From Candidatus Zhuqueibacterota bacterium (GTDB lineage: Bacteria > Zhuqueibacterota > Zhuqueibacteria > Thermofontimicrobiales > Sulfurfontimicrobiaceae), in contig JAFGMA010000203.1 in the NCBI GenBank assembly GCA_016927835.1, forward strand, positions 1 to 64,000: a stretch of 64,000 nt of DNA, written 5' to 3'. The notes below the pieces were generated by a model. That model was not told where the DNA came from and searched no databases. It was given only the letters and a program-made list of their open reading frames with translations. Position numbers and translations under genes: made by a program. Below are positions 32,901 to 55,741 of the stretch, one piece after another (positions within the stretch are counted from its first letter, which is position 1; each line of letters begins with the position of its first letter).

Positions 32901-34102
32901 CGGTTGCCAGCCCGGTCCCAACTTGCAGCTTCAAACGAATAAACCGAATCCTGCATCGCATTTTTAAAAATGGCGTACGTGCTATCGATTCTGGTTTTCC
33001 AGTTGAGCCAGCTACCGCTGCTCCCGATTTTCATCCTGATATCGAACAGCTTGTCCAAACCTGAACCGCCGGCATCGCTTGCATAATCACCCCAGGTTAC
33101 CAGGAAAGTGGTTTGTGTGCTAACGGAATCCGTTCTTGCCAGCGTCCCGGCAGGCGGAATATTATCATAATTGAATCGATAGATTGTCACCCACGATTCG
33201 GCGGCATTTCCCACGCCATCGATGGTTCTGATACGCAAAAAGTAGGTATTGCTGCTGTCGATCTGCTTCGGTTGATAAACCGGATCGACCGTAGAATGGG
33301 TAATCGTCGTCCCGCTCGAATCGGTGCCCCAATATACATGATATTCGCTCACGCCGGAAAGCGCATCATTGCCAGGCTGCCAGTGGAATTCAGGTGCGGT
33401 GATGTTATTTTGCCAAATATTATTCAGGCTTCCGCTGCTGTCGCCGCAAACATTTTGGGTCAATGCCGGATTTTCAGGCGGTTCTGCATCGATGGTGATG
33501 CGCATGCTGGCGGAATATTCGCTATAGGAATGTTTGTCAAACGCTTTGACCCGCCACCAATATTTTCCCGAATTCAGCGGTTGCGGAGGTGTAAACCTGA
33601 TGCTTCCTGTTCCCTGGGCAACCGGTGGTTTGGGATCGAATCCTGCATCCCCTGCGAAAGAGGAAGCGGAAATTTTTCCGGAGCCGAATTGGGCGCTGGT
33701 ATCGATTTCGAAAACAAAGTGCAGCGAATCGCTGTCAGTATCCGCAGGAATCGACCAGCTAAAGGTTGGCGCCTGCTCCCCGGTCAGAGTGTTATCCGCC
33801 GGTGAAACCAGCAGCGGTTTGCCCGGGGGCTTATTATCAGTTGGAATTAAGGTGGGGATGAAACCGCTGCTCAATTTATCCCCATTAACTGCACTTAAAT
33901 TCCCGACAGGAGACGACTGTCCCGCAGCTATCACCATTTTATACGTACTGGAACCAATAATCTGACCGGCGCTGCCCAGCACGCTGGATTTGATGGTTCT
34001 TGTCGCATCTGCCTGCCCAGCCAGATTGGCGAGCATTAAAAATGATAAAAGAACAGCCATCAGAAATTTAGCACAGCCATTTATGAATACGTGTTTTTTC
34101 AT
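29948..34102 (-). CDS. large secreted Ig/FnIII-like protein with type IX-like sorting domain
   Basis: The product (1384 aa) has a signal peptide (about residues 1-33) and repeated Ig/FnIII-type domains of the kind FSWSIPADTDSDSLHFVFEI and LEWEVPNDADGDSLHFKVEL. Five or more such modules are seen between residues 90 and 860. A less repetitive region follows (AYRMVSVPLKLDKSTIEDVL, typical of S-layer-like surface proteins of this superphylum). The C-terminal sorting domain begins at YHLSQNFPNPFNPETEIRF and ends in MKKMILLK. It is predicted to be exported through a type IX-like route. The ribosome site is weak. It precedes the CsgG-like gene by 62 bp, so envelope genes and kinases are interleaved on one strand. 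Confidence 0.78.
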   Translation of the reverse strand: MKKHVFINGCAKFLMAVLLSFLMLANLAGQADATRTIKSSVLGSAGQIIGSSTYKMVIAAGQSSPVGNLSAVNGDKLSSGFIPTLIPTDNKPPGKPLLVSPADNTLTGEQAPTFSWSIPADTDSDSLHFVFEIDTSAQFGSGKISASSFAGDAGFDPKPPVAQGTGSIRFTPPQPLNSGKYWWRVKAFDKHSYSEYSASMRITIDAEPPENPALTQNVCGDSSGSLNNIWQNNITAPEFHWQPGNDALSGVSEYHVYWGTDSSGTTITHSTVDPVYQPKQIDSSNTYFLRIRTIDGVGNAAESWVTIYRFNYDNIPPAGTLARTDSVSTQTTFLVTWGDYASDAGGSGLDKLFDIRMKIGSSGSWLNWKTRIDSTYAIFKNAMQDSVYSFEAASWDRAGNREAWTDIAETSILIDTTREDVDAPAAPRNIAVNGAQISPWQNTPEFSVTWENPHDPSGIKRALYKLGSEPQGNFDTTGTTLDDSLLVTATKEDGQPLFVWLEDTRGNLDFNLNARVLLRYDSHAPRIDSLLVKNADYDSTWFNPIATSVAKILLQFEEKHPVLPVFTAANFTYQTNAISLTRFEYDVDLSDKNDGSFSFQLEVADSAGNRVRDSLQVQLDQTPPAQSIAYSPDSSRSESFNVFWESGTDSSGSGLSGIFDILVQIDGNPWQTWLVKTILASSAYAGEHGHRYGFQALAFDNVGNRESMLDVAETITIVDTVQTVSSNQPPDAPTLLSPTTNFITNQATITLEWEVPNDADGDSLHFKVELDTKGDFGADKVSFTSQANPDKFSPMPAVAGSEQSVKFTISLNENWYWWRVSAWDGRQFGETSTAQKFMVDLTKPTVSHVPIQFAAADSQVSISADIEDALSGLRSRKLLYRKGGETGTRSKSITDNIVTIPSDYITSRGVEYALVAEDLAGNATRFPQTGFSSIQVVIHDPGESPRNTAGVPIPLHTGSAQTAYRMVSVPLKLDKSTIEDVLFDDLGESYDNTKWRLFDYGSGRYIEYPNTSHFTPGKAFFIIVKSGTYVITSGAGTTLKTGVEYNIPLAGSWNLIGNPYNFEISKNQLTLANGDPVTLWTYKGQWDTSSVLVPWEGYALKTTAATNLVVNTIDSTTSLSKRLLVQAGASPNENDWYIQIDARCEHARDPINFIGMRHDASDGWDANDLFEPPPIGEFITLYFPHSEWQENPGDYAADFRPHSSAGNSWDFEIRTNIPHSEVELTFEGITDLESRKKAVLIDVDDRTVKNLAEEHYYRYTSGSDLTPRRLTLITGTDEFIEEKTAGLNVLPESYHLSQNFPNPFNPETEIRFALPAPGIVRLTIYNVLGEEINALIGDRNYVAGNHSVIWNGWDKEGHPVASGIYLFRLQADGFSAMKKMILLK

Positions 34103-34234
34103 AGTCGCTCAATTTGGATTAATTTAATCTGAAAAAGCGATTTAAATCCTTATTGCGTTCCTTGAAGAACGCTCGTTTAATCCGAATATATGAACATGAA
34201 AATGGGACATGCCCGATGATTTAATTTGGCGCCG

Positions 34235-35950
34235 CTAATCATGGGAACCAAACGGGTCATTCGCTGAAACCGTCGTCTCCGGTTCTTTTTCCAGACGATA
34301 GGATTCATATCCTTTGCGCTTGGCAACAATCCGGTAAGAGAATCGAATATTCGACGTTCCTCCGTTCAACTCCTCTACAGTGAAAGCATCTCGTCCGAGC
34401 TGCGACACATACAAGCCGTTGCAATTGCCAAGAGGCGTCAAAAATACGTGATAATCGTGATCCGTGGAAATGGTTTTAAGATATAACGGCTCGATACCGA
34501 TACTTGTACGACCGTTTTTCAGTTGCCCGTAGCCGAAATCTTCGAACCAGACTTCGGGGCTTTCCAGGCAGTACAGAAAATAGGTTTCACCATCGACATC
34601 GACGCGGGCGCTTTTATTGTCGGCGGTGATATAGCCTTCGATCCTGACATTTCCCTGGAACAAGGCGGCGTAGCTGCTGGTATTGTTGACTTTACACAAA
34701 ATGCCGTAATTTGTGCCGGTTAACGAAGTCGCCTCAGCATAAATGGCTGCCGAATTCACACCGGTTGAATATGCAGCGATCCCCGTATCGACGGCGGCTG
34801 CCTGGAGACCGGTTTTTTTCCCGCCGCCGGCAGGATTGAGAGCTTCCGCGCGAAGCGCCGTTGCCCGGGCATTGCTCGAAGTGAAACTGTTTGCAGCCGA
34901 AGCCTGAATGCCATAAATTGTTCCGTTTCGTTGACCGCTTGCAGTACTTTGCACACCGATATTCGTGCTGGTTGCCACCAGGGCTTTGCCGGTTCCGGTA
35001 TTCGATATGCTTAATGTGGATTCGCTGTTGCTGGATGTTATACCCTGCGTTTCGGTGCCTGCTGATTTCCGAACATATTTTTCAGTGAGCGTGCTCGTAC
35101 CTTCGTATAAGCTGGCGACAACTCCCTGCCTTCCGGCATCATTGGTCAAATTTAAAAATTCGTTGCTGTCCTTGCCGTCCAGTAAATCTGCATCCAATCC
35201 GCTGCCAGAGCCGTCATTAATATCAGTTGCGTTATGATTATGCGTGGTATTGGCAAAATCAGTCGAATTTTTGCCATCGAGAAGATCGGCATTCAAACCG
35301 CTGCCGGGACCTGCGCTAATATCGCTGGCGGAATGCGTATGCGTTGACTGGGCGTATTCCGCCCCTTGCTTGCCATCCAGAAGGTCTGCGTTGAGTTCGC
35401 TGCCGGGTCCATCATTGATTTCATCAGCACTATGGGTATGCGCAGTATTGGCAAACGTCTCCGAATCTTTGCCATCCAGCAGATCGGCGTCAAGCCCGCT
35501 GCCCGATCCAGCCAGGATATCGACGGCATCGTGTGTATGGGCGGTGTTGGCGAAATTTGTGGCATCCTGACCGTCAAGTTTATCTGAATTTATAGCATAC
35601 GCAACACTGGTTAGCCGGACCCTGGGCTTCATTTCTTCATTCGTTCCGATTTTCACACCCAAAAATAGCGCATTCGCCGAGAATGCTGATGGTTCGAGGC
35701 TCTGCTTGGAGCCAAGCAATACGTGAAAAATACCCGATTGAATGGCAACCGTTTGCGTTTCGCTCCAGATCGGAGCCTGCGTTGTGTCTTCGTACAGGTA
35801 GAACGTCATCTCCAGGTTTCCGGTGAATTCTTGATTGGCATTATCCAACAATCGCCCCTGATAATTTAGCAGCAATGGAACCTGAGCCAGACAAAGCCCG
35901 TTTAGCGAAATCAAAATAAGTATTGAAATTATAAAAATACCTTGTTTCAT
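34235..35950 (-). CDS. secreted fibre-like protein with 33-residue repeats
   Basis: The product (571 aa) has a signal peptide (MKQGIFIISILILISLNGLC). It then has an N-terminal domain (VPLLLNYQGRLLDNANQEFT) common in phage-tail-fibre-like secreted proteins. Four tandem 33-residue repeats (unit starting HTHSASDISAGPGSGLNADL) lie at about 140-275, encoded by 99-bp DNA repeats. The C-terminal domain (WFEDFGYGQLKNGRTSIGIE, then FSYRIVAKRKGYE) recurs in secreted proteins of this group, but I know no name for it. GGAGG precedes the ATG at 35950. An open extension to 36028 has no ribosome site. It is likely a trimeric or fibrous surface protein. Confidence 0.7.
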   Translation of the reverse strand: MKQGIFIISILILISLNGLCLAQVPLLLNYQGRLLDNANQEFTGNLEMTFYLYEDTTQAPIWSETQTVAIQSGIFHVLLGSKQSLEPSAFSANALFLGVKIGTNEEMKPRVRLTSVAYAINSDKLDGQDATNFANTAHTHDAVDILAGSGSGLDADLLDGKDSETFANTAHTHSADEINDGPGSELNADLLDGKQGAEYAQSTHTHSASDISAGPGSGLNADLLDGKNSTDFANTTHNHNATDINDGSGSGLDADLLDGKDSNEFLNLTNDAGRQGVVASLYEGTSTLTEKYVRKSAGTETQGITSSNSESTLSISNTGTGKALVATSTNIGVQSTASGQRNGTIYGIQASAANSFTSSNARATALRAEALNPAGGGKKTGLQAAAVDTGIAAYSTGVNSAAIYAEATSLTGTNYGILCKVNNTSSYAALFQGNVRIEGYITADNKSARVDVDGETYFLYCLESPEVWFEDFGYGQLKNGRTSIGIEPLYLKTISTDHDYHVFLTPLGNCNGLYVSQLGRDAFTVEELNGGTSNIRFSYRIVAKRKGYESYRLEKEPETTVSANDPFGSHD

Positions 35951-36080
35951 TTCTTTCCTCCGCGAATCCTTGATAATTGAAGTCACAGGGAGCAGCACCT
36001 TCTGAAATCGGTGATGGGTCAATTCCAAATCCTGCCCGGATTGAAGGAATTTGTAAACAAGGCTGCTCTCCCGGTTGAGT

Positions 36081-41146: not shown

Positions 41147-41287
41147 AAGAATCCGGTCAAAAAGGAAAGTCTTTCGCAAGGATGATCCCTTCAGGCTTGC
41201 GCAGAGCCGGGGCAAAAAGCTATCTTATGAAAATAAAATACGCATGATGTGTACCAAAATATCAAATTGACCAAACACCGATATCTT

Positions 41288-42775
41288 ATGAATTGGGATT
41301 TTTTAAAAGGTAAAACCATTTTTCAAAAGCTTTTTCTTGTATTGATCACAGTAGCGGTGGTTCCGCTGATAATAATGGAGATTCAATTACACATATTCGA
41401 ATTGATTTCGAAAGAGATTGTGAAATGGGCTTTTCATTCCATTTTTGGGCTCGCGGTTTTGCTTGCTGCGGGAGGGGCATTTTATTTATCCAGAAAAATT
41501 AGTCGTCCAATATCAGATTTCGCGAAAAGCGCGACATCAATAGCCAGGGGGAATTTTACGCATAGGGTTAATGTAAATTCTAATGATGAGATAGGCAAAT
41601 TGGCAAAAATATTCAATTACATGACAACTGAACTACAAAGATTGCATGAAATGAACTTAAACAAGATTATTTCTGAAAAGAACAAAACAGAGACCATCAT
41701 CAAAAATATTGCGGATGGTGTAATTGTGACAGATCCTGATAATCGCATACTGGTTCTAAATTCTGTGGCTGAAAATTGGTTCGGTTTAAAGGAACGAGAA
41801 GTAATGCAGCACCCGCTTGAAAATTTCATTCATGATGAAGAACTCGTTTCGCTCATCAAAAACATCCGAAATTCTTGTAGCAATCATTCATCTGCCCTGG
41901 AAATTCAACTTAAACCAACGAAAACCAGACGTGATATTATTTTGCAGGCGAAAGCAGCGCGCGTTGTTCGAAACAAAGATGACCTGATCGGAATTGTTAC
42001 CATTTTGAGAGATATTACCCGCGAGAAAGAAATTGATCGCATGAAAACCGAACTGGTTTCAATGGTTGCACATGAACTAAGATCGCCTTTGACATCAATA
42101 TCCGGCTTCAGCGAGCTGCTGCTTGATCAAAATCTCTCAGAGGAGCAGTCCAAAGAATACGCCGAAATTATTTTGAAAGAATCGAATCGTCTCGGCGATT
42201 TGATAAATAAATTTTTGGATATTTCAAAAATTGAAGCCGGCAAAAGCCAAATAAATCGCGAACCAACGTCAATTAAAGAAATTATCGACAAAGTGGTCGA
42301 TCTGAATATTCACCAGGCAGGTCGAAAGAAGCTTTCAATCGATATCAATATTTCACCCGAGATACCGCTGGTACTGGTTGACAAAGAAATGATCAGCGAA
42401 GTCGTATTGAATCTTTTCTCGAATGCGATTAAATACAGTCCGGAAAAAGCCAATGTAAATATAGTGGTCACTCATGCGGATGGCTTTCTGCAAATCGCTG
42501 TACGCGATACCGGATACGGCATTTCGAAAGAATCCCTTCCAAAAATATTCAACAAATTCTATCGTGTTGATGATGATGAAAACGTTCGCGACACAACCGG
42601 TTCGGGTCTGGGTCTGGCGCTTGTGAAAGAAATCGTAGAATTGCATGGCGGAAGCGTCCATGTTAAAAGCAAACTTGGCGAAGGCTCAACGTTTACCGTA
42701 AAGCTTCCGACAGGCACAGAATCCGAAGAAAGCTATTTTGCTCCCGAATTTTTGCGGGAATCGCTTTTCGCCTGA
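41288..42775 (+). CDS. membrane sensor histidine kinase (HAMP-PAS-HisKA-HATPase)
   Basis: The product (495 aa from the ATG at 41288) has two membrane helices (KLFLVLITVAVVPLIIME and FHSIFGLAVLLAAGGAFYL) with almost no periplasmic loop, a HAMP domain, a PAS domain (IADGVIVTDPDNRILVLNSV), a HisKA dimerisation domain with the phospho-acceptor His in MVAHELRSPLTSI (about residue 262), and an ATPase domain (NLFSNAIKYSPEKA, DTGYGIS, GSGLGLALVKEI). Its sensing is probably intramembrane or cytoplasmic. A GTG at 41249 could add 13 residues; neither start has a good ribosome site. Confidence 0.9.
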   Translation: MNWDFLKGKTIFQKLFLVLITVAVVPLIIMEIQLHIFELISKEIVKWAFHSIFGLAVLLAAGGAFYLSRKISRPISDFAKSATSIARGNFTHRVNVNSNDEIGKLAKIFNYMTTELQRLHEMNLNKIISEKNKTETIIKNIADGVIVTDPDNRILVLNSVAENWFGLKEREVMQHPLENFIHDEELVSLIKNIRNSCSNHSSALEIQLKPTKTRRDIILQAKAARVVRNKDDLIGIVTILRDITREKEIDRMKTELVSMVAHELRSPLTSISGFSELLLDQNLSEEQSKEYAEIILKESNRLGDLINKFLDISKIEAGKSQINREPTSIKEIIDKVVDLNIHQAGRKKLSIDINISPEIPLVLVDKEMISEVVLNLFSNAIKYSPEKANVNIVVTHADGFLQIAVRDTGYGISKESLPKIFNKFYRVDDDENVRDTTGSGLGLALVKEIVELHGGSVHVKSKLGEGSTFTVKLPTGTESEESYFAPEFLRESLFA

Positions 42776-43797: not shown

Positions 43798-45816
43798 ATG
43801 GGTAGCAAATTGGAAATCTCAATTAAAAACAACAAGTTACCAGATATTGAAAAGCCGATGCAACATCGTTTTAAGGCACAAGATGGCGCGGATTCATTTT
43901 CAGCTTTGGAGCATGGCATGGGCTCGCCACACAAGACCGTATTGCTCATTGATGATGACAGCGATATGAGGGAAATCGGGCGAAAAATCATCACCGGTGC
44001 CGGCTATCAATATATTGAAGCCAGCAGCGGGAGCGAGGGTCTCGAAAAAATACTGAAGTTTCGTCCCGACTTGATCTTGCTGGATTATATGATGCCGCAA
44101 ATGAGCGGTGACGAGGTATTCCAGCAGTTGATAAGCTCAGCCCGATACCGGACAAGATCGGATATTCCGGTCATCATGCTCACTGCAAAATCGGAATATG
44201 ATGTAGACCGCAATCGTTTATTCGAAATGGGGCTTAGCGCATTCCTTGTCAAGCCATTCGGTCATCGCGAATTGATCAATGTGATTGATAATGTTTTCAT
44301 CCTGCACCAGGTGCGGCAGAAAAACCGGGAACTGGAACAGCGGATTCGCCGAACCGAGTACAAATACCAGGACCTGATCGAAAATGCAAATGATCTGATT
44401 TTTACGCTTAGCCTTAAAGGCGATTTCATTTTCATCAATCGTCGCCTGGCTACGTTGACCGGGTACGCTCGCGAGAACTGGATTGGGCGCAGTTTTTTCG
44501 ATCTGGTTGCAGCGTATGACCGCAAGGAAGCTGAAAAGAACTTTCAGGAGACTTTGCGAGGTTCGGCGCGCATTTTTGAAATGCGAATTATCTGCGCAGA
44601 TAAGAAAACGCTCTATTTGAATACCAACATCAACCCCATTTTTGAAAAAGGTGAAGTCATTGGTTCCGTCGGCATTGCTCGAGATATTACCCAACGCGTG
44701 AAACTCGAACAAGAGATTGTGGAACTTAAAAATTTCATCGAAAGTATTATTCAAAGCATCGGTTCGGGTCTGATCACGCTGGATTTGGAAAAACGCATCA
44801 CCTATTTCAATTCCGGCGCGGAAGACATCACCGGCTATAAAGCAAAATCTGTTATTGGAAAATACCTGGATGAAGTTTTTCCCCGCGAAGAGATAAAACA
44901 GCTTTTACCCGATTTTTCATCCAACAATTCTCCGCTCAACCGCGAAATGGAAATAACCATCAAATCGGGAAATAAGATTTATATTGGTTTCAATGTGACG
45001 CCACGGATGGACAATCGCGAAACGAAAGTCGGAACTATCATAACGTTCCGGGATATCTCGGAAATCAAGCAGATGCAGGCAGAGGTTATCCGGATGGACC
45101 GACTGGCTTCGCTGGGAGTACTCGCCTCGGGTATCGCCCATGAAATCAGAAATCCGCTTGCCGGCATCAAAACAATGGCTCAGACTTTGGAGGAGGAAAT
45201 TGAGCAAAACGATTCCAGGCGCGAATATACTTCGCGCATTATCAGACAGGTGAATCGGCTTGATGAACTACTGCGTACCTTCTTCTCCTATGCGCGTCCC
45301 AGACAGCCCATTCGCAAGTTTTATCGCCTTCAGGAAATCGTTCATGAAGTTTATATGCTATTGGAAAGCCGTTTTTCCAGCCATAATATAGAATTCATCA
45401 GCGAATATGACAAAAATTTGCCGCTGGTTTACGTGGATTTCCAGCAAATTCAACAGGTTTTTTTCAATCTGATTCTGAATGCGATTGATGCCATGCAGGA
45501 TGGTGGACACCTTCAGATCATTGCCAAGCCGGTAGAAACCATTATATATGCCGTGGATCGCCGAAAAAAGCCTTACCTGGGAAAACGCAATAGCTCAATT
45601 TTTGTGGAAGTGAAGGTTGATGACACCGGCAGCGGAATTACATCTGAAGACCTCGAGGCGATTTTCGATCCGTTTTTCACGACAAAGCCACAGGGAACAG
45701 GGTTGGGGCTATCAATTGTGCATCGGATCGTCGAAGAGCACGAAGGGGAAATCAGAGTAAAAAGCGAAATTAATAAGGGTACTTCTTTTACGCTTCTCTT
45801 ACCGACCAAGGAGTAA
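43798..45816 (+). CDS. hybrid histidine kinase: receiver-PAS-PAS-HisKA-HATPase
   Basis: This 672-aa soluble protein begins with a receiver domain (46-165; Asp96 in LILLDYMMPQ, Lys in VKPFG). Two PAS domains (about 190-300 and 310-425), a HisKA domain with His448 (GIAHEIRNPLAGI) and an NtrB-like ATPase domain (LILNAIDAMQDGG, DTGSGIT, GTGLGLSIVHRI) follow. The N-terminal receiver suggests it is itself controlled by another kinase. Its gene is 7 bp before the NtrC-type activator, so it is the likely cognate kinase. No membrane helix is seen. Confidence 0.92.
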   Translation: MGSKLEISIKNNKLPDIEKPMQHRFKAQDGADSFSALEHGMGSPHKTVLLIDDDSDMREIGRKIITGAGYQYIEASSGSEGLEKILKFRPDLILLDYMMPQMSGDEVFQQLISSARYRTRSDIPVIMLTAKSEYDVDRNRLFEMGLSAFLVKPFGHRELINVIDNVFILHQVRQKNRELEQRIRRTEYKYQDLIENANDLIFTLSLKGDFIFINRRLATLTGYARENWIGRSFFDLVAAYDRKEAEKNFQETLRGSARIFEMRIICADKKTLYLNTNINPIFEKGEVIGSVGIARDITQRVKLEQEIVELKNFIESIIQSIGSGLITLDLEKRITYFNSGAEDITGYKAKSVIGKYLDEVFPREEIKQLLPDFSSNNSPLNREMEITIKSGNKIYIGFNVTPRMDNRETKVGTIITFRDISEIKQMQAEVIRMDRLASLGVLASGIAHEIRNPLAGIKTMAQTLEEEIEQNDSRREYTSRIIRQVNRLDELLRTFFSYARPRQPIRKFYRLQEIVHEVYMLLESRFSSHNIEFISEYDKNLPLVYVDFQQIQQVFFNLILNAIDAMQDGGHLQIIAKPVETIIYAVDRRKKPYLGKRNSSIFVEVKVDDTGSGITSEDLEAIFDPFFTTKPQGTGLGLSIVHRIVEEHEGEIRVKSEINKGTSFTLLLPTKE

Positions 45817-45823
45817 TTTATTC

Positions 45824-47218
45824 ATGAATTCCAAAGCGAACGTTTTGATTGTTGAAGATGATGGTACAATTTCACTCGGACTGGAGAAAACACTCAAAAG
45901 AGATGGGTATAAAGTTATCAGTGTCGAGAGCGGAGAAAAAGCCCTGTCAATTTTAAGTCAGGAAGCGATTGACCTGGTTCTGCTGGATATTAAATTGCCC
46001 AAAATGAACGGATTTCAGGTTCTGGACCGAATCAAGGAAATAGAACCCGAACCAACCGTGATCATGATTACTGCACTTCACGATGTCCCGGAAGTTGTCA
46101 AGGCAATTCGTTCCGGCGCTTATGATTATATCCCGAAGCCGTTTGAAAACGAAACCGTTCGCCAAAGAGTCAGAAAAGCTCTTGAAAACAAGCAGCTAAA
46201 AAAAGAAGTCATGGCACTGAAGCGCCAACAAAAGGAACGGTATCCTGCAAATATGCTGTTTGGCAATAGCCCGCAAATCAAAGAGGTAAAGCGCCTCATC
46301 GAACTGGTTGCTAGCACACCGCGGACTCCGATTTTGATTCAAGGAGAAAGCGGTACCGGGAAAGAACTTGTCGCCGATGCCATTCATAATTCAAGCGCGC
46401 GGGCAACCAAACCCATGATTAAAATTAATTGCAGTGCCATTCCTGAACTGCTGCTCGAAAGCGAATTATTCGGTCACGAAAAAGGGGCATTCACCGATGC
46501 GAAAACCTTGAAGAAAGGCATGTTCGAGTTGGCTAATAATGGCAGCATATTTCTGGACGAAATCTCCAGCATGAAAATGTCGCTGCAGCCTAAAATTTTG
46601 AGAGTACTTGAAGATCATACAATTCGTCGCATTGGTGGAATTCAGGACATAAAAATTGATGTTCGAATAATTGCGGCTTCCAATCGCGATATCGATAAAC
46701 AGGTTCAGGAGGAAACCTTTCGCGAAGATTTGCTTTATCGGCTCAAGGTAATGGTGATCGAAATTCCGCCCTTGCGGGAACGCAAAATCGATATTCTGCC
46801 ATTAGCAAAAATATTTATTGAAGCGAACAATAAAGAATTCAATAAAAATATTCAAAGCATCGCGCCCGAAGCTGAAAATTTATTGCAAAATTACAATTGG
46901 CCCGGAAATGTCCGTGAGCTTAAAAATGTCATGGAACGAGCCGCTATTTTAGCCGATGGTGATTGCCTGAAGCCCGAACATCTGCCGCTGGAGTTGAAAC
47001 CAGGAAAGAGCAAATCCGGTGCATTCCCGGCTCCCGTCGCCGAACCAGTATCTGCGCCCGCTGAAAGCCATCTCGATCAATCTTTGCAAGAAATCGAGAA
47101 GAAGCACATCATAGATATTCTGAACCGGCATGATGGCAATAAATCAAAAGCTGCCAGAATTCTCAATATTTCCCGTTCGACGCTACGCGAAAAACTCAAA
47201 GTCTATGGAATTTCCTGA
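45824..47218 (+). CDS. NtrC-family sigma-54-dependent response regulator
   Basis: The 464-aa protein has a receiver domain (Asp55 in LVLLDIKLPK, KPFEN), an AAA+ activator domain (Walker A GESGTGKE at 174-181, HEKGAFTDA at 218-226, Walker B SIFLDEISS, RRIGG) and a Fis-type helix-turn-helix at the end (SKAARILNISRSTLREKLK). The sigma-54-contacting GAFTGA loop reads GAFTDA. AAGGAG precedes the ATG, 7 bp after the kinase gene stop. Two sigma-54 promoter candidates lie downstream (47542 and 49795), making local activation likely. Confidence 0.94.
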   Translation: MNSKANVLIVEDDGTISLGLEKTLKRDGYKVISVESGEKALSILSQEAIDLVLLDIKLPKMNGFQVLDRIKEIEPEPTVIMITALHDVPEVVKAIRSGAYDYIPKPFENETVRQRVRKALENKQLKKEVMALKRQQKERYPANMLFGNSPQIKEVKRLIELVASTPRTPILIQGESGTGKELVADAIHNSSARATKPMIKINCSAIPELLLESELFGHEKGAFTDAKTLKKGMFELANNGSIFLDEISSMKMSLQPKILRVLEDHTIRRIGGIQDIKIDVRIIAASNRDIDKQVQEETFREDLLYRLKVMVIEIPPLRERKIDILPLAKIFIEANNKEFNKNIQSIAPEAENLLQNYNWPGNVRELKNVMERAAILADGDCLKPEHLPLELKPGKSKSGAFPAPVAEPVSAPAESHLDQSLQEIEKKHIIDILNRHDGNKSKAARILNISRSTLREKLKVYGIS

Positions 47219-47604: not shown

Positions 47605-48285
47605 ATGGTTTCAATTCACAAAAAAATATTAATTGTAGATGATGAAGAAGATCTGACATGGAGCATCGCCAGGAGCCTGACGAAGGATTGCAAGCTATTC
47701 GAAATTTTTTGTGTTAATGCGGGGGATAAGGCATTAGAATTTTTGTCAAAAACCTCGGTTGATCTGGTCATTACCGATGTACGTATGCCAGGAATCAATG
47801 GGTTGGATTTGGTGCTTGAGGTTCGTAAACGGTACCCTTCAATTAAAATAATAGTTATGACAGCTTATGGTACGCCTGAAATCGAAGAGCAAGCGGATAA
47901 GCGAGGTGCATACCATTATATTGAAAAACCATTTGATATCAAGAACTTGAAACGACTCGTATATACAAATTTAATCGAACCCTTCGAGCACTTCGAAGGT
48001 CATTTGATGAATATTCGTTTGCGCGATGTACTATCCTTATATTGCATCAGCCAAAACACCGCAGCTTTGAATATTTCAAATGGCGCCGACAAAGGTGTCG
48101 TTTACTTCAAAGGCGGCGAAATCGTTCACGCCAAGTGCTGCAATCTAAGCGGCGAACCTGCCTTGCGCTTCATGCTCAATTGGAAAAAAGGAAGTTTCAA
48201 AACGAGTTTAGGCAGTTTTCCGGTTCAGCAAACTATCAGTCGTGACTGGCAAAATCTTTTAATGCAATCGTCTGTTGATAATTGA
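47605..48285 (+). CDS. response regulator with PATAN/DUF4388 output domain
   Basis: The 226-aa protein has an N-terminal receiver (Asp58 in LVITDVRMPG, Lys in IEKPFD). A C-terminal PATAN (DUF4388) domain starts at FEGHLMNIRLRDVLSL and includes GVVYFKGGEIVHAKC and GEPALRFMLNWKKGSFK. PATAN domains occur in cyanobacterial PatA and in bacterial receiver proteins, and are thought to mediate protein contacts rather than DNA binding. A sigma-54 promoter candidate lies 48-63 bp upstream, so the gene is probably activated by the NtrC-type protein encoded just before it. Confidence 0.88.
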   Translation: MVSIHKKILIVDDEEDLTWSIARSLTKDCKLFEIFCVNAGDKALEFLSKTSVDLVITDVRMPGINGLDLVLEVRKRYPSIKIIVMTAYGTPEIEEQADKRGAYHYIEKPFDIKNLKRLVYTNLIEPFEHFEGHLMNIRLRDVLSLYCISQNTAALNISNGADKGVVYFKGGEIVHAKCCNLSGEPALRFMLNWKKGSFKTSLGSFPVQQTISRDWQNLLMQSSVDN

Positions 48286-48496: not shown

Positions 48497-49339
48497 ATGG
48501 GTGAAGTGATAGCAATCGCAAGTCAGAAGGGCGGTGTAGGGAAAACGACCACTGCTGTCAATCTTAGCGCAAGTCTGGCACTCCTGAATCATAAAACTCT
48601 ACTGATTGATACAGATCCGCAGGGTCATGTTGCCAGCAGCTTTGGATTTGGCAAATTCGATGTTAAAGCCGGCGTTTATGACCTGTTTCTCGGGAATGCC
48701 AAAATAACCGATATGATTCATAAAACCGAAATCGAGAACTTCGATTTCATTCCAACCAACATCTGGGCAGATAACGGCAAGAATGAACAACTCATCAGCG
48801 CAGCATCAGAATCAATTTTATGTGAATCCATTAAAGAAATCCGCGATAGTTACCGATTTATTCTAATAGATTGTCCTCCTGCATTGGGGAATTTAACGCT
48901 GAATGCTCTGCTTGCTGCAGATTCGCTTATTGTTCCTGTGCAATGTGAATATTATGCCTTGAAAACCCTGGGAAAATTTTTAAAGCTTATTCAAACGATC
49001 CGCCAGAGGCAAAATCCAGCATTGCAATATCGAGGATTTCTATTGACAATGGTCGATTTGCGCAATAATCTCACAAGAGAGGTTATTAAGAAAATCAAAT
49101 ATACCTTAAAAGGGCTGGTTTATGAAACCATGATCCCAAGAAATGTGAGGCTAGCTGAAGTTCCATTTTATGGGCGCCCCGCTATTCTATTTGATAAAAA
49201 AAGTAAAGGCGCATCAAGTTATTTTAAATTGGCAAAGGAAGTTATTCAACAACAGCCTGACCTGTCATCCTCCCTGAAAAGCGATCTAAACCAAAAAGAG
49301 CATTCTCTAAATCAATTGGCAACTCTGCATGCTTCCTGA
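48497..49339 (+). CDS. ParA/Soj-type ATPase, orphan
   Basis: The 280-aa product is a ParA-family (MinD-superfamily) ATPase with the deviant Walker A motif QKGGVGKTTTA (10-20), LLIDTDPQGH (A' box) and LIDCPPALGNL (Walker B). ParA proteins form dynamic gradients on the nucleoid that position chromosomes, plasmids or protein clusters. No ParB lies nearby. The neighbours are response regulators and an FtsZ-like gene, so it may position a chemosensory-type or division-related complex rather than segregate DNA. The C-terminal about 25 residues (KSDLNQKEHSLNQLATLHAS) are an extension of unknown use. Confidence 0.93.
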   Translation: MGEVIAIASQKGGVGKTTTAVNLSASLALLNHKTLLIDTDPQGHVASSFGFGKFDVKAGVYDLFLGNAKITDMIHKTEIENFDFIPTNIWADNGKNEQLISAASESILCESIKEIRDSYRFILIDCPPALGNLTLNALLAADSLIVPVQCEYYALKTLGKFLKLIQTIRQRQNPALQYRGFLLTMVDLRNNLTREVIKKIKYTLKGLVYETMIPRNVRLAEVPFYGRPAILFDKKSKGASSYFKLAKEVIQQQPDLSSSLKSDLNQKEHSLNQLATLHAS

Positions 49340-49865: not shown

Positions 49866-50570
49866 ATGATTTCGGTAAAAAGGACTTTTAGGAAAATGAA
49901 GCTGGCATTATTGACTTCTTTGATCGTCATCACCTGCCTTTCTGCAATCAGTTTTACCTACAAGTTTTACTCATTTGAAGAAACAGCTTCAAGAATGTCT
50001 AAACTCGAGAGAACGCTGCAGGATTTGCGCGCTGCAATGAATGTGGATAGCGTGCGCCAATACCATATTCACAAAATAATGGGCATCATCGATCAATACA
50101 ATCCAAAATTGCCTGCCGGTACAAAATACGAGATCGCAAATGAAATTTATCGTATGAGCGTCAAATACCCGAATATCGATGTCGACTTGATTTGCGCAAC
50201 GATTACCCATGAAAGCGCTGTCACATGGCGACCTACTATCAAGTCTGAAGCAGGTGCCATGGGACTTATGCAAATTATGCCCACCACTGGCATCCTTTTG
50301 GCGCAAGCCGAGGGAATTCCCTGGACAACACCTGAAGAAATTTTATATGATCCAATTTATAATATTCGACTTGGATGCCGTTATCTTTCAACTCTCGTCA
50401 AAAGCTATAATACAGATGGCGGATTGGCAGCATACAATGGCGGAGAAAAACGAGCTGCTTTATGGCTTGCCAATAACAGGGATTATGCATTTTTGTGGGA
50501 AGAAACCAGGGACTATGTGCCGGCAGTTTTGAAGCTCTACGAAAAATTCAAAAATCAGGGCATCCTGTAA
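49866..50570 (+). CDS. membrane-anchored lytic transglycosylase (SLT fold)
   Basis: The 234-aa product has a signal anchor (LALLTSLIVITCLSAISFTY), a short coiled segment (about 40-65) and a C-terminal SLT-type domain that cleaves peptidoglycan glycan strands. Catalytic Glu116 lies in ATITHESAVTWRP. The motifs GAMGLMQIMPTTG and LAAYNGG are canonical. GGAG precedes the ATG. It probably opens the wall locally for a trans-envelope machine or for division. Its position between a ParA ATPase and an FtsZ-like gene, with a sigma-54 promoter candidate in front, supports a regulated, localised role. Confidence 0.92.
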   Translation: MISVKRTFRKMKLALLTSLIVITCLSAISFTYKFYSFEETASRMSKLERTLQDLRAAMNVDSVRQYHIHKIMGIIDQYNPKLPAGTKYEIANEIYRMSVKYPNIDVDLICATITHESAVTWRPTIKSEAGAMGLMQIMPTTGILLAQAEGIPWTTPEEILYDPIYNIRLGCRYLSTLVKSYNTDGGLAAYNGGEKRAALWLANNRDYAFLWEETRDYVPAVLKLYEKFKNQGIL

Positions 50571-50684: not shown

Positions 50685-52367
50685 ATGGAAGAAGATACCA
50701 AACAACTCCGAACATCTAGCTTTTGTGATGAATTAATCACGCGCTTCTTCAACTCGAACAGCTTCTTCTTCCTGTGCCTGAACGCGCATCTGGTACATCT
50801 GGAAAGCGTTCCCAATCAGAAAATCAGTGACGAAGTGTTTGATCTCATTCAGAAATTGGTACAAGCTGTGGTTGGTTCATCCGACAAATTATCGCATCTC
50901 GACCGGATTTCAGAAATTTTGGGCATCAATCTTCGCAATTTCTTTACCACGCAAATTGCTCAATTAAAGCGTGCTGATGCAGGAAGTGATGTTATCAGCT
51001 TGACAATTGATAATATTGCTGCAGACTTCTCTTCAATGCTGCTTACAAGCATACAAAGCGAAGTTGCTCAAAATAAAATCAGAACGTTTCTGGGGCATCC
51101 CCCACCGGAGATGCCTGACTCGAAGGAGACGGAACTCTATCAGTCTTCCGATGCCATCAAAATTGTCGATGTCTCTGATAGCTCCTATTTTCCCCAGGCT
51201 GAAGCCCTGTTTTCTACCTTTAAAAGAGAAATTCACTCTAAATTAAACGAAATAAACGCAACTACCGATAATTTTATTAAGCAACCTTCCGACTTCTTTC
51301 ATCTGAAGCAATTGGAGGGTGAATTGTGGGATTTGAAAATCCTGTCTATGATTCAGGATTTTGATATCATCGAGGATTTATCCGGGAAGTCTGCAAATTT
51401 GCTGCGGGTTATCCGTGAAAAGCAATCGAAACCAGATGATTCTGTATTGCAAATCATAGAAACGCTGAATAGCCTGGTGCATAAATCCCTGTCAGAGAAT
51501 TTTGAAGACAGCGAAATTGTCGACTTCATCAACCAGATAAAGCAAGCAAAAATAAAATATTTAAACCCGGATTTTTATGAACCAATCGTAATACCAAATC
51601 CGTCCGAGCAGACAGAAGAGGCTGCGAACCAGAGCAATGAAGCGCCGTTGATGAAAAAGGATTTCGAACGCTCAGGTGAGTCATCTCTGAAACCATCCGT
51701 TGCGCCTCCGGAATCAGCGGCTAAGCCTTCGGAATTGAAATTGCCGGGAGAAGATGATCCGGAATTGCATAAAATTGTTGATGATATCGTCCATAGCCGG
51801 GCAATACATACCAGAAAGCAGGAGAATGCCACCGAGATAATTGGCAAAGCTGAATCATCGCACCACCAGCCGGGAGAAAAAATATCAGTTCCCGACACGC
51901 AAATGAACAGCGTGCACAGCCAGGGTATCCACAACGGACGTGAACGTCTCTTCAAACGAGAGACCGCTATGTACTTGAAAATGATGGTAAATGCGGTTGA
52001 TGCGCTTCACGACGAGCCAACAAATATGAATGCACTGGAGGATATCGAGCTCGCCTCATATTCTGTAAAAGGTGTTGCCCAACGCCTGGGCTATGAAACG
52101 ATTGGACGCTTGCCGGCTGTGCTGGAAGCGCTTTCAGCTCAAATTACAGCCCGTAAAATGATGTTAACTGGTGATATGCTGCAACTTTTTGAAAACGCGA
52201 TTCATCTTTTGGAAAGTTTTGAAACCAACGATGTCTCCTTCAAAAAGGATGTCATGAAAACGATTTCAAATTTGAAAAAATTGAGCCGTCATTTTGATGC
52301 CCCTGGGATAAAATCATCTCAAAAGGTCAGCAAACAGCCGGGTATTGGTCTTTTGAATTATGATTAG
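50685..52367 (+). CDS. protein with degenerate Hpt-like modules
   Basis: I recognise no named family. The 560-aa protein is soluble and mostly helical, with a Pro/Ser/Glu-rich linker at about 300-420. Two segments follow the Hpt pattern HxLKGxAxxxGFxxL: YSVKGVAQRLGYETIGRLP (459-477), with Tyr in the His position, and LWDLKILSMIQDFDIIEDL (215-233), with Trp. The phospho-acceptor is missing from both, so they are likely docking modules, as in multi-Hpt kinases such as ChpA. An N-terminal domain (10-135) is unassigned. It lies 107 bp before the FtsZ-like gene on the same strand. Confidence 0.6.
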   Translation: MEEDTKQLRTSSFCDELITRFFNSNSFFFLCLNAHLVHLESVPNQKISDEVFDLIQKLVQAVVGSSDKLSHLDRISEILGINLRNFFTTQIAQLKRADAGSDVISLTIDNIAADFSSMLLTSIQSEVAQNKIRTFLGHPPPEMPDSKETELYQSSDAIKIVDVSDSSYFPQAEALFSTFKREIHSKLNEINATTDNFIKQPSDFFHLKQLEGELWDLKILSMIQDFDIIEDLSGKSANLLRVIREKQSKPDDSVLQIIETLNSLVHKSLSENFEDSEIVDFINQIKQAKIKYLNPDFYEPIVIPNPSEQTEEAANQSNEAPLMKKDFERSGESSLKPSVAPPESAAKPSELKLPGEDDPELHKIVDDIVHSRAIHTRKQENATEIIGKAESSHHQPGEKISVPDTQMNSVHSQGIHNGRERLFKRETAMYLKMMVNAVDALHDEPTNMNALEDIELASYSVKGVAQRLGYETIGRLPAVLEALSAQITARKMMLTGDMLQLFENAIHLLESFETNDVSFKKDVMKTISNLKKLSRHFDAPGIKSSQKVSKQPGIGLLNYD

Positions 52368-52473: not shown

Positions 52474-54351
52474 GTGAAATCCATTCTGGAAAGCGGACGC
52501 AAGGAAGTCTCCCAAAACAGAAAAATTGAATTGACGGAAAAAGATAAAGAATTGCAAACAATGCTGGGCTCCCATAAAACGGTAATAAAAATTATGGGCG
52601 TCGGAGGCGCTGGCAATAATACGCTTACCAGGTTAATGGAAGTGGGTGTCAAAGATGTCGACACGATTGCGGCGAATACGGATGCACAGGATTTGCTCTA
52701 TACAACAGCTAATAAGAAATTATTATTAGGACGCGATATTACAAACGGACTCGGTGCCGGCAGCAATCCGCAAATTGGTGAAGACGCTGCAAAGGAGAAC
52801 GAACATGAATTGAAGGAAATGCTGGAAGGCAGCGATATGGTCTTCGTAACCTGCGGACTCGGTGGGGGAACAGGTACAGGCGCTGCGCCAGTTGTTGCAG
52901 AGATTGCACGCGACACCGGTGCATTGACAATCTCTATCGTTACCCTGCCTTTCACTGAAGAAGGGGTCATGCGCTGGGATAATGCGAGATCCGGATTGGA
53001 AAAATTGCGCCAAAATTCGGATACTGTGATTATTATTCAAAATGACAAATTGCTGGAAATCGCTCCCGACCTGCCGCTCGATGCTGCGTTCAAAGTCGCC
53101 GACGAAATCCTGGTGAATGCCGTCAAAGGCATCACGGAACTGGTCACCGAAAAAGGACTCGTCAATTTGGATTTTGCTGACGTCAAAGCCATCATGCGCA
53201 ATGGCGGCACAGCTATGATCGGTATCGGGGAAAGTGAAACCGAAAACCGTGCAGAAGAAGCGGTTGAAGAGGCGATTAAAAATCCGTTGCTTGACGTCGA
53301 TATCACCGGAGCAAAAAGCGCCCTGCTTCATATCTCAGGCGGCAGAAATATGTCGCTCAAAGATGCGAAAATTGTGATGAAAACGGTTTCCGAAAAACTC
53401 GATGCCAGCGCCCGAGTCATTTGGGGGGCACGCATGGATGACGCGATGAATGAAACCTTGCGCGTTATGCTTATTGTAACCGGTCTGCGCTCTTCCGAAC
53501 AATTTGATCATTTAACCTCAAATAGCAATTCTGCACTCTCAACTGAGAAAAACAAATCGACCACGAGTGCTGCTGCACCTCAGTTAATGAAGGAACATAA
53601 AACCGATGATCGAATGCCACCCAGGCAACCCGAAAAATTTCGATCCATTTCGGATCAAACACTCGCTTCAAAAAAAAACAATGAAAATAGCGTTGTCAAG
53701 TTGGATGATCAACCAACACGGCAGCGCAGCAATACCCAGCCGCAAGTCGAGAAATCAACCCGTAGTATTAATGATGTGACCGGAAAAACTGAAGATGCTA
53801 CCGAACCCGATCTCGAAAGCGTAGCGGAAGATTCAATACAAGATTCTAAATATTTTGACATAAAAGAGATCGAAACTGTCGATACAATCCCAACTGAAGC
53901 TGCCTATGCCCCGAAAGCCGATCGCAAAGGCAAGCGAGTCTTCACTGAAATTTTCGAAGAAGAAGCTAAAGGTGATTTGAATATTTTGGTAGATGCAATC
54001 GGTTTGCTGGGAAATGGGGAAACCGACCGCAAGGTTTTGAAAGATATAAAAAATGCCTGCAATTCATTGAAAAACACTGCCCAACTCTTCGCATTTGAGC
54101 AAATCGAAGCTTTTGCCGACAGAATCTCAGCCTTCATGGATTTTTTAGCGCTGCAAAAAGTCATCCCCATTCAGTCGCTTCAAAAAGCGTTGGAAGATGT
54201 ACCCGATACCATCAACGATCTGATGTTTGAGGATCAGGAAGCGCTGCTTAGAGTGGATGAAGTACAGTCCAAATTCAATGAAATTCAAAAGGCGTTGGAG
54301 CAGAGAATTTCCCATAGCCCGGAAATTCAGCATCCTGAAAAAAAAAAGTGA
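52474..54351 (+). CDS. archaeal-type FtsZ GTPase with Hpt-like C-terminal module
   Basis: The 625-aa protein contains a complete FtsZ core (35-345) that should bind GTP and polymerise: GVGGAGNN (42-49), GLGGGTGTGAAPV (128-140) and the synergy loop NLDFADVKAIM (231-241) are intact. Details such as ELTEKDKEL before the core, GLGAGSNPQIGEDAAKE and VKGITELVTEKGLVNLDFAD are closer to archaeal FtsZ as I recall it than to usual bacterial FtsZ. A disordered linker (about 350-490) leads to a helical domain (495-612) with an Hpt-like segment CNSLKNTAQLFAFEQIEAFA, where Asn replaces His. The usual FtsA/ZipA-binding tail is absent. The start is a GTG with AAGGAGG. It is probably a second, regulated FtsZ rather than the division protein. 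Confidence 0.85.
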   Translation: MKSILESGRKEVSQNRKIELTEKDKELQTMLGSHKTVIKIMGVGGAGNNTLTRLMEVGVKDVDTIAANTDAQDLLYTTANKKLLLGRDITNGLGAGSNPQIGEDAAKENEHELKEMLEGSDMVFVTCGLGGGTGTGAAPVVAEIARDTGALTISIVTLPFTEEGVMRWDNARSGLEKLRQNSDTVIIIQNDKLLEIAPDLPLDAAFKVADEILVNAVKGITELVTEKGLVNLDFADVKAIMRNGGTAMIGIGESETENRAEEAVEEAIKNPLLDVDITGAKSALLHISGGRNMSLKDAKIVMKTVSEKLDASARVIWGARMDDAMNETLRVMLIVTGLRSSEQFDHLTSNSNSALSTEKNKSTTSAAAPQLMKEHKTDDRMPPRQPEKFRSISDQTLASKKNNENSVVKLDDQPTRQRSNTQPQVEKSTRSINDVTGKTEDATEPDLESVAEDSIQDSKYFDIKEIETVDTIPTEAAYAPKADRKGKRVFTEIFEEEAKGDLNILVDAIGLLGNGETDRKVLKDIKNACNSLKNTAQLFAFEQIEAFADRISAFMDFLALQKVIPIQSLQKALEDVPDTINDLMFEDQEALLRVDEVQSKFNEIQKALEQRISHSPEIQHPEKKK

Positions 54352-54532
54352 TCATGAAATAAAAATATTGAAACAATGGGCACTATTCCAATATATGAGT
54401 CAACCAATGCCTCACGAATTAAGTGGTTCATTTCAGCAGGCAAAATATTTGTTTATGGACTTAGATGCCAATTTAATTTAAGCTGCACCAGCCACAATCT
54501 TTGAGCGGACTAATCGGAATACGGTGATATAC

Positions 54533-55741
54533 ATGGCAAATGATAGCTCGGACATAATCAACGAAATAACGGGGAACAATCAACCACAGGGTGCGGTACA
54601 TCACTCTCTGGACGATTATTTTCTGGATGAGCTGCAGAATCATTTGAATTTTCTGCATTCCATCCTCACTGATAAGGCAGAAAGCAATTTTGCTCCTTCC
54701 GATCTGCAACAAATGATTCATGCTGCACAACGAATCGAAGACCTGGCAATGGTGCACGGCTATCATGAAATCGAAGCGTATGCAAATGTAGTCTTCGCAC
54801 AAATCGTGTCCCTGAAAAATAAATCTTCCTCAAATCATGCGGATAAACTAAAGCTGATACAAGCCATTTTCCATTCGATTAAAAAAATCCGTGCCATCGA
54901 GCCGACCATTGATGGCGGTGAAAGACCACCCGCCAATGATTCCGGCACCGTAGCTCTTTCGAAGAAGCATATTAATGATATTTTGCCCGCTGAAAAGTCC
55001 CTGGATGAATCACCTTCTGAGGCGAACAAACATTCGGCAACTGAATTGTTCGACATCAAAGAGGTGGATGACTTGCTGAAACTGAAAAGCAAATCAAATC
55101 CGTTGCAGCCGCGCAACCAGGAAAATCCCGACACACCGCAAACATTGCAGGTTGTTGAAGTCGATTGGGCGGCAACTGCCAGGCATGCGGCACCAGCATT
55201 CACGACAGAGCAAGTTGCATCTGATTCTGATTTTGCCGGTGACCAATTTCAGGCTGTCGAGGAATCCATGGAAGCATTGCTGGAAGTGTTTTCAGCTTCG
55301 CATGAAATTGAAAACATTGATTATGCAATTCAAAATATTCAGCAGGCGTTTGCGACGCTGCAAGATCTGATGCAACGCAGCGCATCGAATGACATGCAAA
55401 ATCTCTCGAATCTGGTTGCAAAAATTTGCCATAATAATTTGTCATCCGAAATATTCAGGAAACCAGGGATTGCGGTCCTTTTTAAGGAGATTATTGATAT
55501 TTTTAAAGCCTATCTCAATGACGAAACCGAAAGCTCGGATCGAATCAAGCATGTTGTGCTTGAATTGGTCGATATATTTAAATCCAATTCGCAATCGGAA
55601 AAACCTGGCATATCGGAAACACTCGCCCCTGATGATGATGAAATCCTCGAAAAAAAAGCTGTCTCCCCATCACCGAAAAAGAGAATCAAATTGATACCTT
55701 CGAAAGAAGATGTACGACGCAGATGGATTCTCAAATTTTAA
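54533..55741 (+). CDS. protein with two degenerate Hpt-like modules
   Basis: Unrecognised 402-aa soluble protein. An N-terminal helical module (about 25-95) has QRIEDLAMVHGYHEIEAYA in the Hpt core position, with Gln for His. A second module (about 240-335) has ATLQDLMQRSASNDMQNLS. Between them lies a charged linker with LFDIKEVDDLL; the FtsZ-like protein linker has YFDIKEIETVD, a possible shared docking motif. The C-terminus is basic (KKRIKLIPSKEDVRRRWILK). The ATG at 54533 is chosen over a GTG at 54524; neither has a strong ribosome site. It is adjacent to the FtsZ-like gene and similar in module type, so all three products probably act together. Confidence 0.6.
   Translation: MANDSSDIINEITGNNQPQGAVHHSLDDYFLDELQNHLNFLHSILTDKAESNFAPSDLQQMIHAAQRIEDLAMVHGYHEIEAYANVVFAQIVSLKNKSSSNHADKLKLIQAIFHSIKKIRAIEPTIDGGERPPANDSGTVALSKKHINDILPAEKSLDESPSEANKHSATELFDIKEVDDLLKLKSKSNPLQPRNQENPDTPQTLQVVEVDWAATARHAAPAFTTEQVASDSDFAGDQFQAVEESMEALLEVFSASHEIENIDYAIQNIQQAFATLQDLMQRSASNDMQNLSNLVAKICHNNLSSEIFRKPGIAVLFKEIIDIFKAYLNDETESSDRIKHVVLELVDIFKSNSQSEKPGISETLAPDDDEILEKKAVSPSPKKRIKLIPSKEDVRRRWILKF

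Follow-up and report, generated by a model that had tools for sequence, protein, structure and literature searches.

An archaeal-type FtsZ joined to a predicted pseudo-Hpt domain and encoded beside two-component genes in a bacterial phylum

Background

Why should a bacterium encode, beside two-component genes and outside its division cluster, an FtsZ that looks archaeal in its core and ends like a signalling protein, and where might such a protein have come from? We address this question for one gene in a window of 64,000 nucleotides, by which we mean the whole stretch of DNA analysed, from a Candidatus Zhuqueibacterota bacterium, a member of a little-known phylum of KSB1 type (contig JAFGMA010000203.1, positions 1 to 64,000; source assembly GCA_016927835.1, 7.58 Mb in 452 contigs).

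Archaeal FtsZ is anchored by SepF, the ParA-family ATPases MipZ and PomZ position FtsZ, and in some bacteria the site of the Z-ring is set by proteins of the ParA type. Literature searches found no description of an FtsZ-Hpt fusion, as had been supposed when the gene was first read from its sequence, and searches on FtsZ in KSB1 bacteria likewise gave no description of the fusion. As far as those searches show, it would be the first case in which the membrane-anchoring tail of an FtsZ gives way to a signalling-type domain, and a connection of two-component signalling with a tubulin-family filament becomes testable. The component parts are of known kinds; what appears to be new is that they are combined and that the combination is widely fixed in one phylum.

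Our preferred reading, in which we place about as much belief as doubt, is that the protein is an acquired, GTP-driven second FtsZ filament whose tail has been swapped for a receiver-docking pseudo-Hpt domain, bringing it under sensor-kinase control.

Results and discussion

The fusion gene and its GTPase core

The gene and its parts are as follows.

52474..54351, + strand: FtsZ-pseudoHpt fusion gene, 625 aa with a GTG start, identified by domain and TIGR00065 matches
52474..52572, + strand: N-terminal lead-in, residues 1-33, aligned to M. jannaschii FtsZ1 from residue 4
52573..53502, + strand: FtsZ GTPase core of archaeal FtsZ1 type, residues 34-343, from profiles, alignment, trees and identities
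53854..53868, + strand: FDIKE peptide of the linker, residues 461-465, common to W9 and the sister-class FtsZ linkers
53923..54312, + strand: pseudo-Hpt domain, residues 484-613, CheA P1 fold, from Pfam Hpt matches in homologues and the predicted fold
54061..54063, + strand: codon of Asn530, at the phospho-histidine position in a 45-homologue alignment

The core is a complete FtsZ, as the original prediction had it: it matches Pfam Tubulin (6.9e-48) and FtsZ_C (8.9e-34) and scores 429.9 bits with TIGR00065 (ftsZ), for which the curated cut-off is 295.2. The glycine-rich GTP-binding loop, with conservative changes only, and the catalytic T7 loop (NxDxxD; N231, L232, D233, F234 and D236 in the fusion) are kept in 26 family members, and on the strength of these motifs we expect an active GTPase. 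GTP-dependent polymerisation is inferred. Affiliation with CetZ, TubZ or tubulin was rejected: chains of these kinds score no higher than 61 bits, archaeal FtsZ1 reaching 412.

A C-terminal domain without its histidine

The fusion has no FtsA-binding tail. A domain of about 130 residues, present in all 45 relatives checked from both classes, follows a variable linker; the tail was rightly read as replaced by something Hpt-like. With the Pfam Hpt profile the window protein stays below threshold (E = 0.012), and 16 of 26 homologues match at E up to 1, the best at 8e-6. A sequence search of PDB chains with the domain gave no match, and a comparison of folds was therefore needed. AlphaFold2, run on an 11-row alignment, gave a model with a mean pLDDT of 87.8 and a pTM of 0.81, for which the top Foldseek matches are CheA P1 domains (3kyi, 3kyj, 8c5v and 1i5n; TM 0.63-0.70). 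The leading two, 3kyi and 3kyj, are CheA3 P1-CheY6 complexes (TM 0.65-0.70). None of the E-values is better than 0.02, a modest level that small helical bundles commonly give, and the P1 fold remains a prediction.

Asn530 occupies the phospho-histidine position. Among the 45 homologues this column holds Ser (16), Lys (10), Thr (6), Asn and Ala (3 each), Ile and Glu (2 each) and single Gly, Leu and Met residues; histidine occurs in none. A predicted Hpt-type domain whose column lacks the histidine is a pseudo-Hpt, and both the helical, Hpt-like nature of this domain and the asparagine had been anticipated. A failure to find an Hpt fold would have refuted that anticipation; the predicted fold is of this type. 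A functional Hpt is ruled out by the absence of the acceptor histidine from all 45 homologues.

The family thus has the helical-bundle fold of CheA P1 and Hpt domains (PF01627; PDB 3kyj, 1i5n) in common with them, together with the weak Pfam matches, but it lacks the phospho-histidine, and its fusion partner is a cytoskeletal GTPase rather than a kinase. A degenerate Hpt protein is known as a polar regulator in Pseudomonas aeruginosa, namely FimL, whose Hpt-like domains have a Gln at the histidine position and which is tied to a chemosensory system (PMC3019171). The fusion meets the same description, an Hpt-type fold with its acceptor histidine replaced, and we make no claim of descent from FimL, which has no GTPase fusion and acts in the control of type IV pili and cAMP.

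Of 45 FtsZ tails, 18 contain the linker peptide FDIK[ED] or a close variant, as do 18 of 22 W9 proteins, compared with 0.9% of shuffled FtsZ tails; the peptide may be a docking motif in place of the usual FtsZ tail. It is found in all nine sister-class FtsZ copies and is rare in other genes of these loci (32 of 661 genes overall). As a separate observation, many family members (L041, L043-L045, L047 and others) end in a conserved short helix of the VREAVKYFDKLF, KVGDMVNYVKHLL or DLKNKLKMELN types, which the window protein has lost.

A conserved two-component operon

The neighbours of the fusion include the following.

41249..42775, + strand: HAMP-PAS histidine kinase, from neighbour annotation
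43798..45816, + strand: REC-PAS-PAS histidine kinase that co-occurs with the fusion, from domain search and co-occurrence
45824..47218, + strand: NtrC-type sigma-54 response regulator, from domain search
47605..48285, + strand: REC-PATAN (DUF4388) response regulator, candidate docking partner, from domain search
48497..49339, + strand: ParA/MinD-type ATPase (AAA_31, 1.7e-54)
49866..50570, + strand: SLT lytic transglycosylase with an N-terminal hydrophobic segment (PF01464, 7.9e-19)
50685..52367, + strand: W7, 560 aa, an N-terminal helical domain and two CheA-P1-like bundles (about 170-293 and 416-538), from prediction and homology
54524..55741, + strand: W9, 405 aa, an N-terminal pseudo-Hpt-like domain and an FDIKE peptide, from homology

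No division genes are found among the neighbours, and the annotations agree with the first description of the setting, in which phosphorelay genes and a ParA surround the fusion. Homologues of the pseudo-Hpt lie in three neighbouring genes, W7, FtsZ and W9, the C-terminal bundle of W7 and the domain of W9 aligning with that of FtsZ at hhalign E-values of 1.4e-11 and 1.1e-6, respectively. By alignment neither has a histidine at the phospho-histidine place. The full-length model of W7 has a pTM of only 0.32, and we consequently use its local domains alone. Between its two P1-like bundles W7 has a conserved LPGEDD peptide, seen in 22 of 30 homologues.

The gene order kinase - NtrC - REC - (ParA - SLT - W7) - FtsZ is kept over many genera, and the sister class keeps kinase - NtrC - REC - FtsZ with no adjoining W7, W9 or ParA. 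Of 82 genomes from the KSB1-type phylum, 50 carry the fusion, most copies sitting in the conserved operon, and the gene is anciently fixed there rather than sporadic. The REC-PAS kinase occurs in 49 of the 50 genomes with the fusion and, among the 32 that lack the fusion, in 9. Of these nine genomes, six are less than 90% complete, and the other three, of family f4, have a decayed FtsZ in the same slot. When only genomes at least 90% complete are counted, the kinase is present in 33 and absent from 0 of those with the fusion, against 3 and 17 of those without. These counts are uncorrected for shared ancestry. The link to the operon is not universal, because family f10 has its fusions elsewhere, apart from the kinase, W7 and ParA.

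Two observations on these families may be added. The f10 fusions (L046, L051, L052, L061, L224-L226) are longer, at about 710-900 aa, and have a different gene context. The decayed f4 genes (L062:7077-8609 and L064:5839-7401, both on the - strand; G012, G022 and a similar ORF in G017) match Tubulin at about 1e-23, have neither FtsZ_C nor a T7 loop and keep an F[DE]VRE peptide; judged from these features, the product looks like a pseudo-GTPase that is still part of the operon.

Signal control or assembly?

An archaeal-type FtsZ with a dead signalling domain, encoded beside two-component genes, suggests a filament cytoskeleton under direct signal control. In the preferred reading, an archaeal FtsZ1 core would most likely have been acquired by an ancestor of the KSB1-type phylum, and in place of its archaeal C-terminal anchoring peptide there would now be a long linker followed by a CheA-P1-type Hpt whose phospho-histidine was lost. 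As the pseudo-Hpt cannot carry phosphate at that residue, it would most likely be a docking surface, which may bind the receiver of the operon (REC-PATAN; in relatives a stand-alone REC) and/or W7 and W9. The sensor kinases would thereby set the place or the time of filament assembly, ParA would take care of positioning, and the wall would be the target of the lytic transglycosylase. PATAN regulators elsewhere exert their effect by binding a motor protein, PilB in Synechocystis (PMC10519157). As in the systems of MipZ and PomZ, a ParA-family ATPase is here genetically linked with an FtsZ; in this case, though, it shares an operon with an FtsZ from outside the dcw cluster, and positioning by it is only proposed.

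Polymerisation, receiver docking, signal control and the cellular role are all inferred, there being no interaction or expression data. Nearly all of the original prediction is borne out, and its reading of the gene is supported; the idea of a second, signal-controlled cytoskeletal GTPase stands in one part: the protein is a second FtsZ beside a dcw copy (see below), while its control by signals and its cytoskeletal role remain inference. The inference of signal control is strengthened because the operon is conserved, the kinase co-occurs with the fusion and both flanking genes carry pseudo-Hpt homologues. The fuller picture, of two FtsZ systems in one phylum, one for division and the other a domesticated archaeal FtsZ1 that is phosphorelay-gated through receiver docking, positioned by ParA and given a wall-cutting output, is more tentative, and we lean slightly against it.

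The chief alternative gives the pseudo-Hpt a structural docking role alone. It would be an assembly module that passes on no signal, pairing with the W7 and W9 domains as a four-helix bundle and tethering the filament to a scaffold, with the two-component genes controlling transcription of the operon. This would fit the presence of one domain family in three adjacent genes, the loss of the histidine in all homologues and the FDIK[ED] peptides common to the FtsZ linkers and W9, and the NtrC regulator in the cluster could indeed act on transcription. In the sister class, however, the domain persists together with REC and kinase genes although no W7 or W9 adjoins, and the known ligand of the P1 fold is a receiver domain, the top structural match being a P1-CheY complex. 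We regard the assembly role as possible but rather unlikely.

A canonical ftsZ in the same genome

Searched with PF00091, the whole genome yields exactly two genes, the fusion and a second ftsZ, the C173 copy, which closes a full dcw cluster of rsmH, an ftsI-type PBP, murF, mraY, ftsW, murG, ftsA and ftsZ. The original prediction would have been undermined had there been no such copy and had the core also branched inside the bacterial FtsZ of its own phylum; the copy is present and adjoins ftsA. Its C-terminus looks canonical (LELPTFIRKRLEI), and its best match among solved structures is B. subtilis FtsZ at 393 bits, the reverse of the pattern of the fusion. The genome thus encodes FtsA; no SepF was found in it. 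The fusion has the GTPase fold and T7 loop in common with canonical bacterial FtsZ of the dcw type, but at about 46% identity, and it is not a protein of that type: it lies outside the dcw cluster, has no FtsA-binding C-terminal peptide and coexists with the C173 copy, which fills the dcw role.

The fusion might nevertheless be a second division FtsZ, sharing the Z-ring with the dcw protein much as archaea have FtsZ1 and FtsZ2, its pseudo-Hpt replacing the FtsA or SepF anchor. Its GTPase motifs are intact, it is a close relative of archaeal FtsZ1, which acts in division, and a ParA adjoins it. Yet, apart from its position outside the dcw cluster and the want of an FtsA-binding tail or, in this genome, of any SepF found, several families of the class keep the dcw ftsZ and have no fusion, from which it follows that the fusion is not needed for division in general. 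We consider a division role improbable.

Archaeal affiliation of the core

The original prediction had placed the motifs and lead-in nearer to archaeal than to bacterial FtsZ, and structure matches, identities and trees agree. Among solved structures the top score, 412 bits, belongs to M. jannaschii FtsZ1, bacterial FtsZs reaching at most 291, and the alignment takes in the lead-in (query 1-340 to chain 4-342). About ten of the best 80 loci from 84,980 species genomes belong to the bacterial group of the fusion and the rest to archaea; the bacterial matches among those 80 come from one phylum only. The median core identity of the fusion family is 59% to archaeal FtsZ1 and 46% to both archaeal FtsZ2 and bacterial FtsZ, the window core alone being 56-65% identical to archaeal FtsZ1s. 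The two archaeal paralogues are 50% identical to each other, less than the fusion is to FtsZ1, and the identity of the fusion family to bacterial FtsZ is no higher than that of the archaea.

In maximum-likelihood trees under a site-mixture model, the fusion and its sister-class orthologues form one clade (100/94), split from bacterial FtsZ at 100/100; a position inside bacterial FtsZ, which would have told against the archaeal affiliation, was not found. A cleaner set, with the longest rows out (without E. coli FtsZ and 9v7v), makes the fusions of the window's class sister to the FtsZ1 of the archaeon UBA543 (100/98), although the FtsZ1-side placement of the fusion family is supported at only 79/75. 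With this set the AU test rejects archaea as one clade without the fusions (p = 0.022). A test of archaeal FtsZ1 alone as a group was weaker (p = 0.0555). The first set, with the long rows, gave weaker tests (p = 0.074 and 0.256) and did not reject the grouping with bacterial FtsZ. Because these values vary with the choice of taxa and of group, nesting of the fusion core inside archaeal FtsZ is likely but not proven.

The core could instead be an ancient paralogue that a single bacterial phylum has retained, or its archaeal likeness could come from slow evolution, and the AU tests with long rows leave room for this. Such an origin sits poorly with a fusion that is nearer to FtsZ1 than archaeal FtsZ2 is, with bacterial FtsZs no nearer to it than to archaea, with a well-supported sister in the UBA543 FtsZ1 and with the single bacterial phylum among the best 80 loci, and we hold it to be quite unlikely. 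Archaeal contamination or a chimeric bin, for which the fragmentation into 452 contigs and 5.09% contamination might speak, is ruled out for practical purposes, since the fusion and the same neighbours recur in dozens of separately assembled genomes across the phylum with no archaeal genes around the fusion.

Acquisition from archaea, the origin that we prefer, bears on a 2023 survey of FtsZ evolution, which noted no notorious ftsZ transfer between archaea and bacteria (PMC9871819); the KSB1-type phylum looks like a clear case. The fusion resembles archaeal FtsZ1 (M. jannaschii FtsZ1, PDB 1w58/1fsz) in core sequence, lead-in and GTPase motifs. It differs in its surroundings and its end: the archaeal protein has an archaeal host, an archaeal tail and spt5-rpL11 beside its gene, whereas the fusion is bacterial, has a linker and pseudo-Hpt and lies in a two-component/ParA operon. 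The protein-synthesis gene context reported for archaeal ftsZ1 (PMC9871819) is seen in UBA543, where ftsZ1 adjoins spt5 and rpL11; the fusion lacks this context, and no SepF partner was found in its genome.

Elsewhere in the window, positions 29948-36028 (- strand) encode a large secreted protein with a C-terminal sorting tail of the NFPNPFNPET type, together with a second secreted protein; this is ordinary for bacteria of the broader group.
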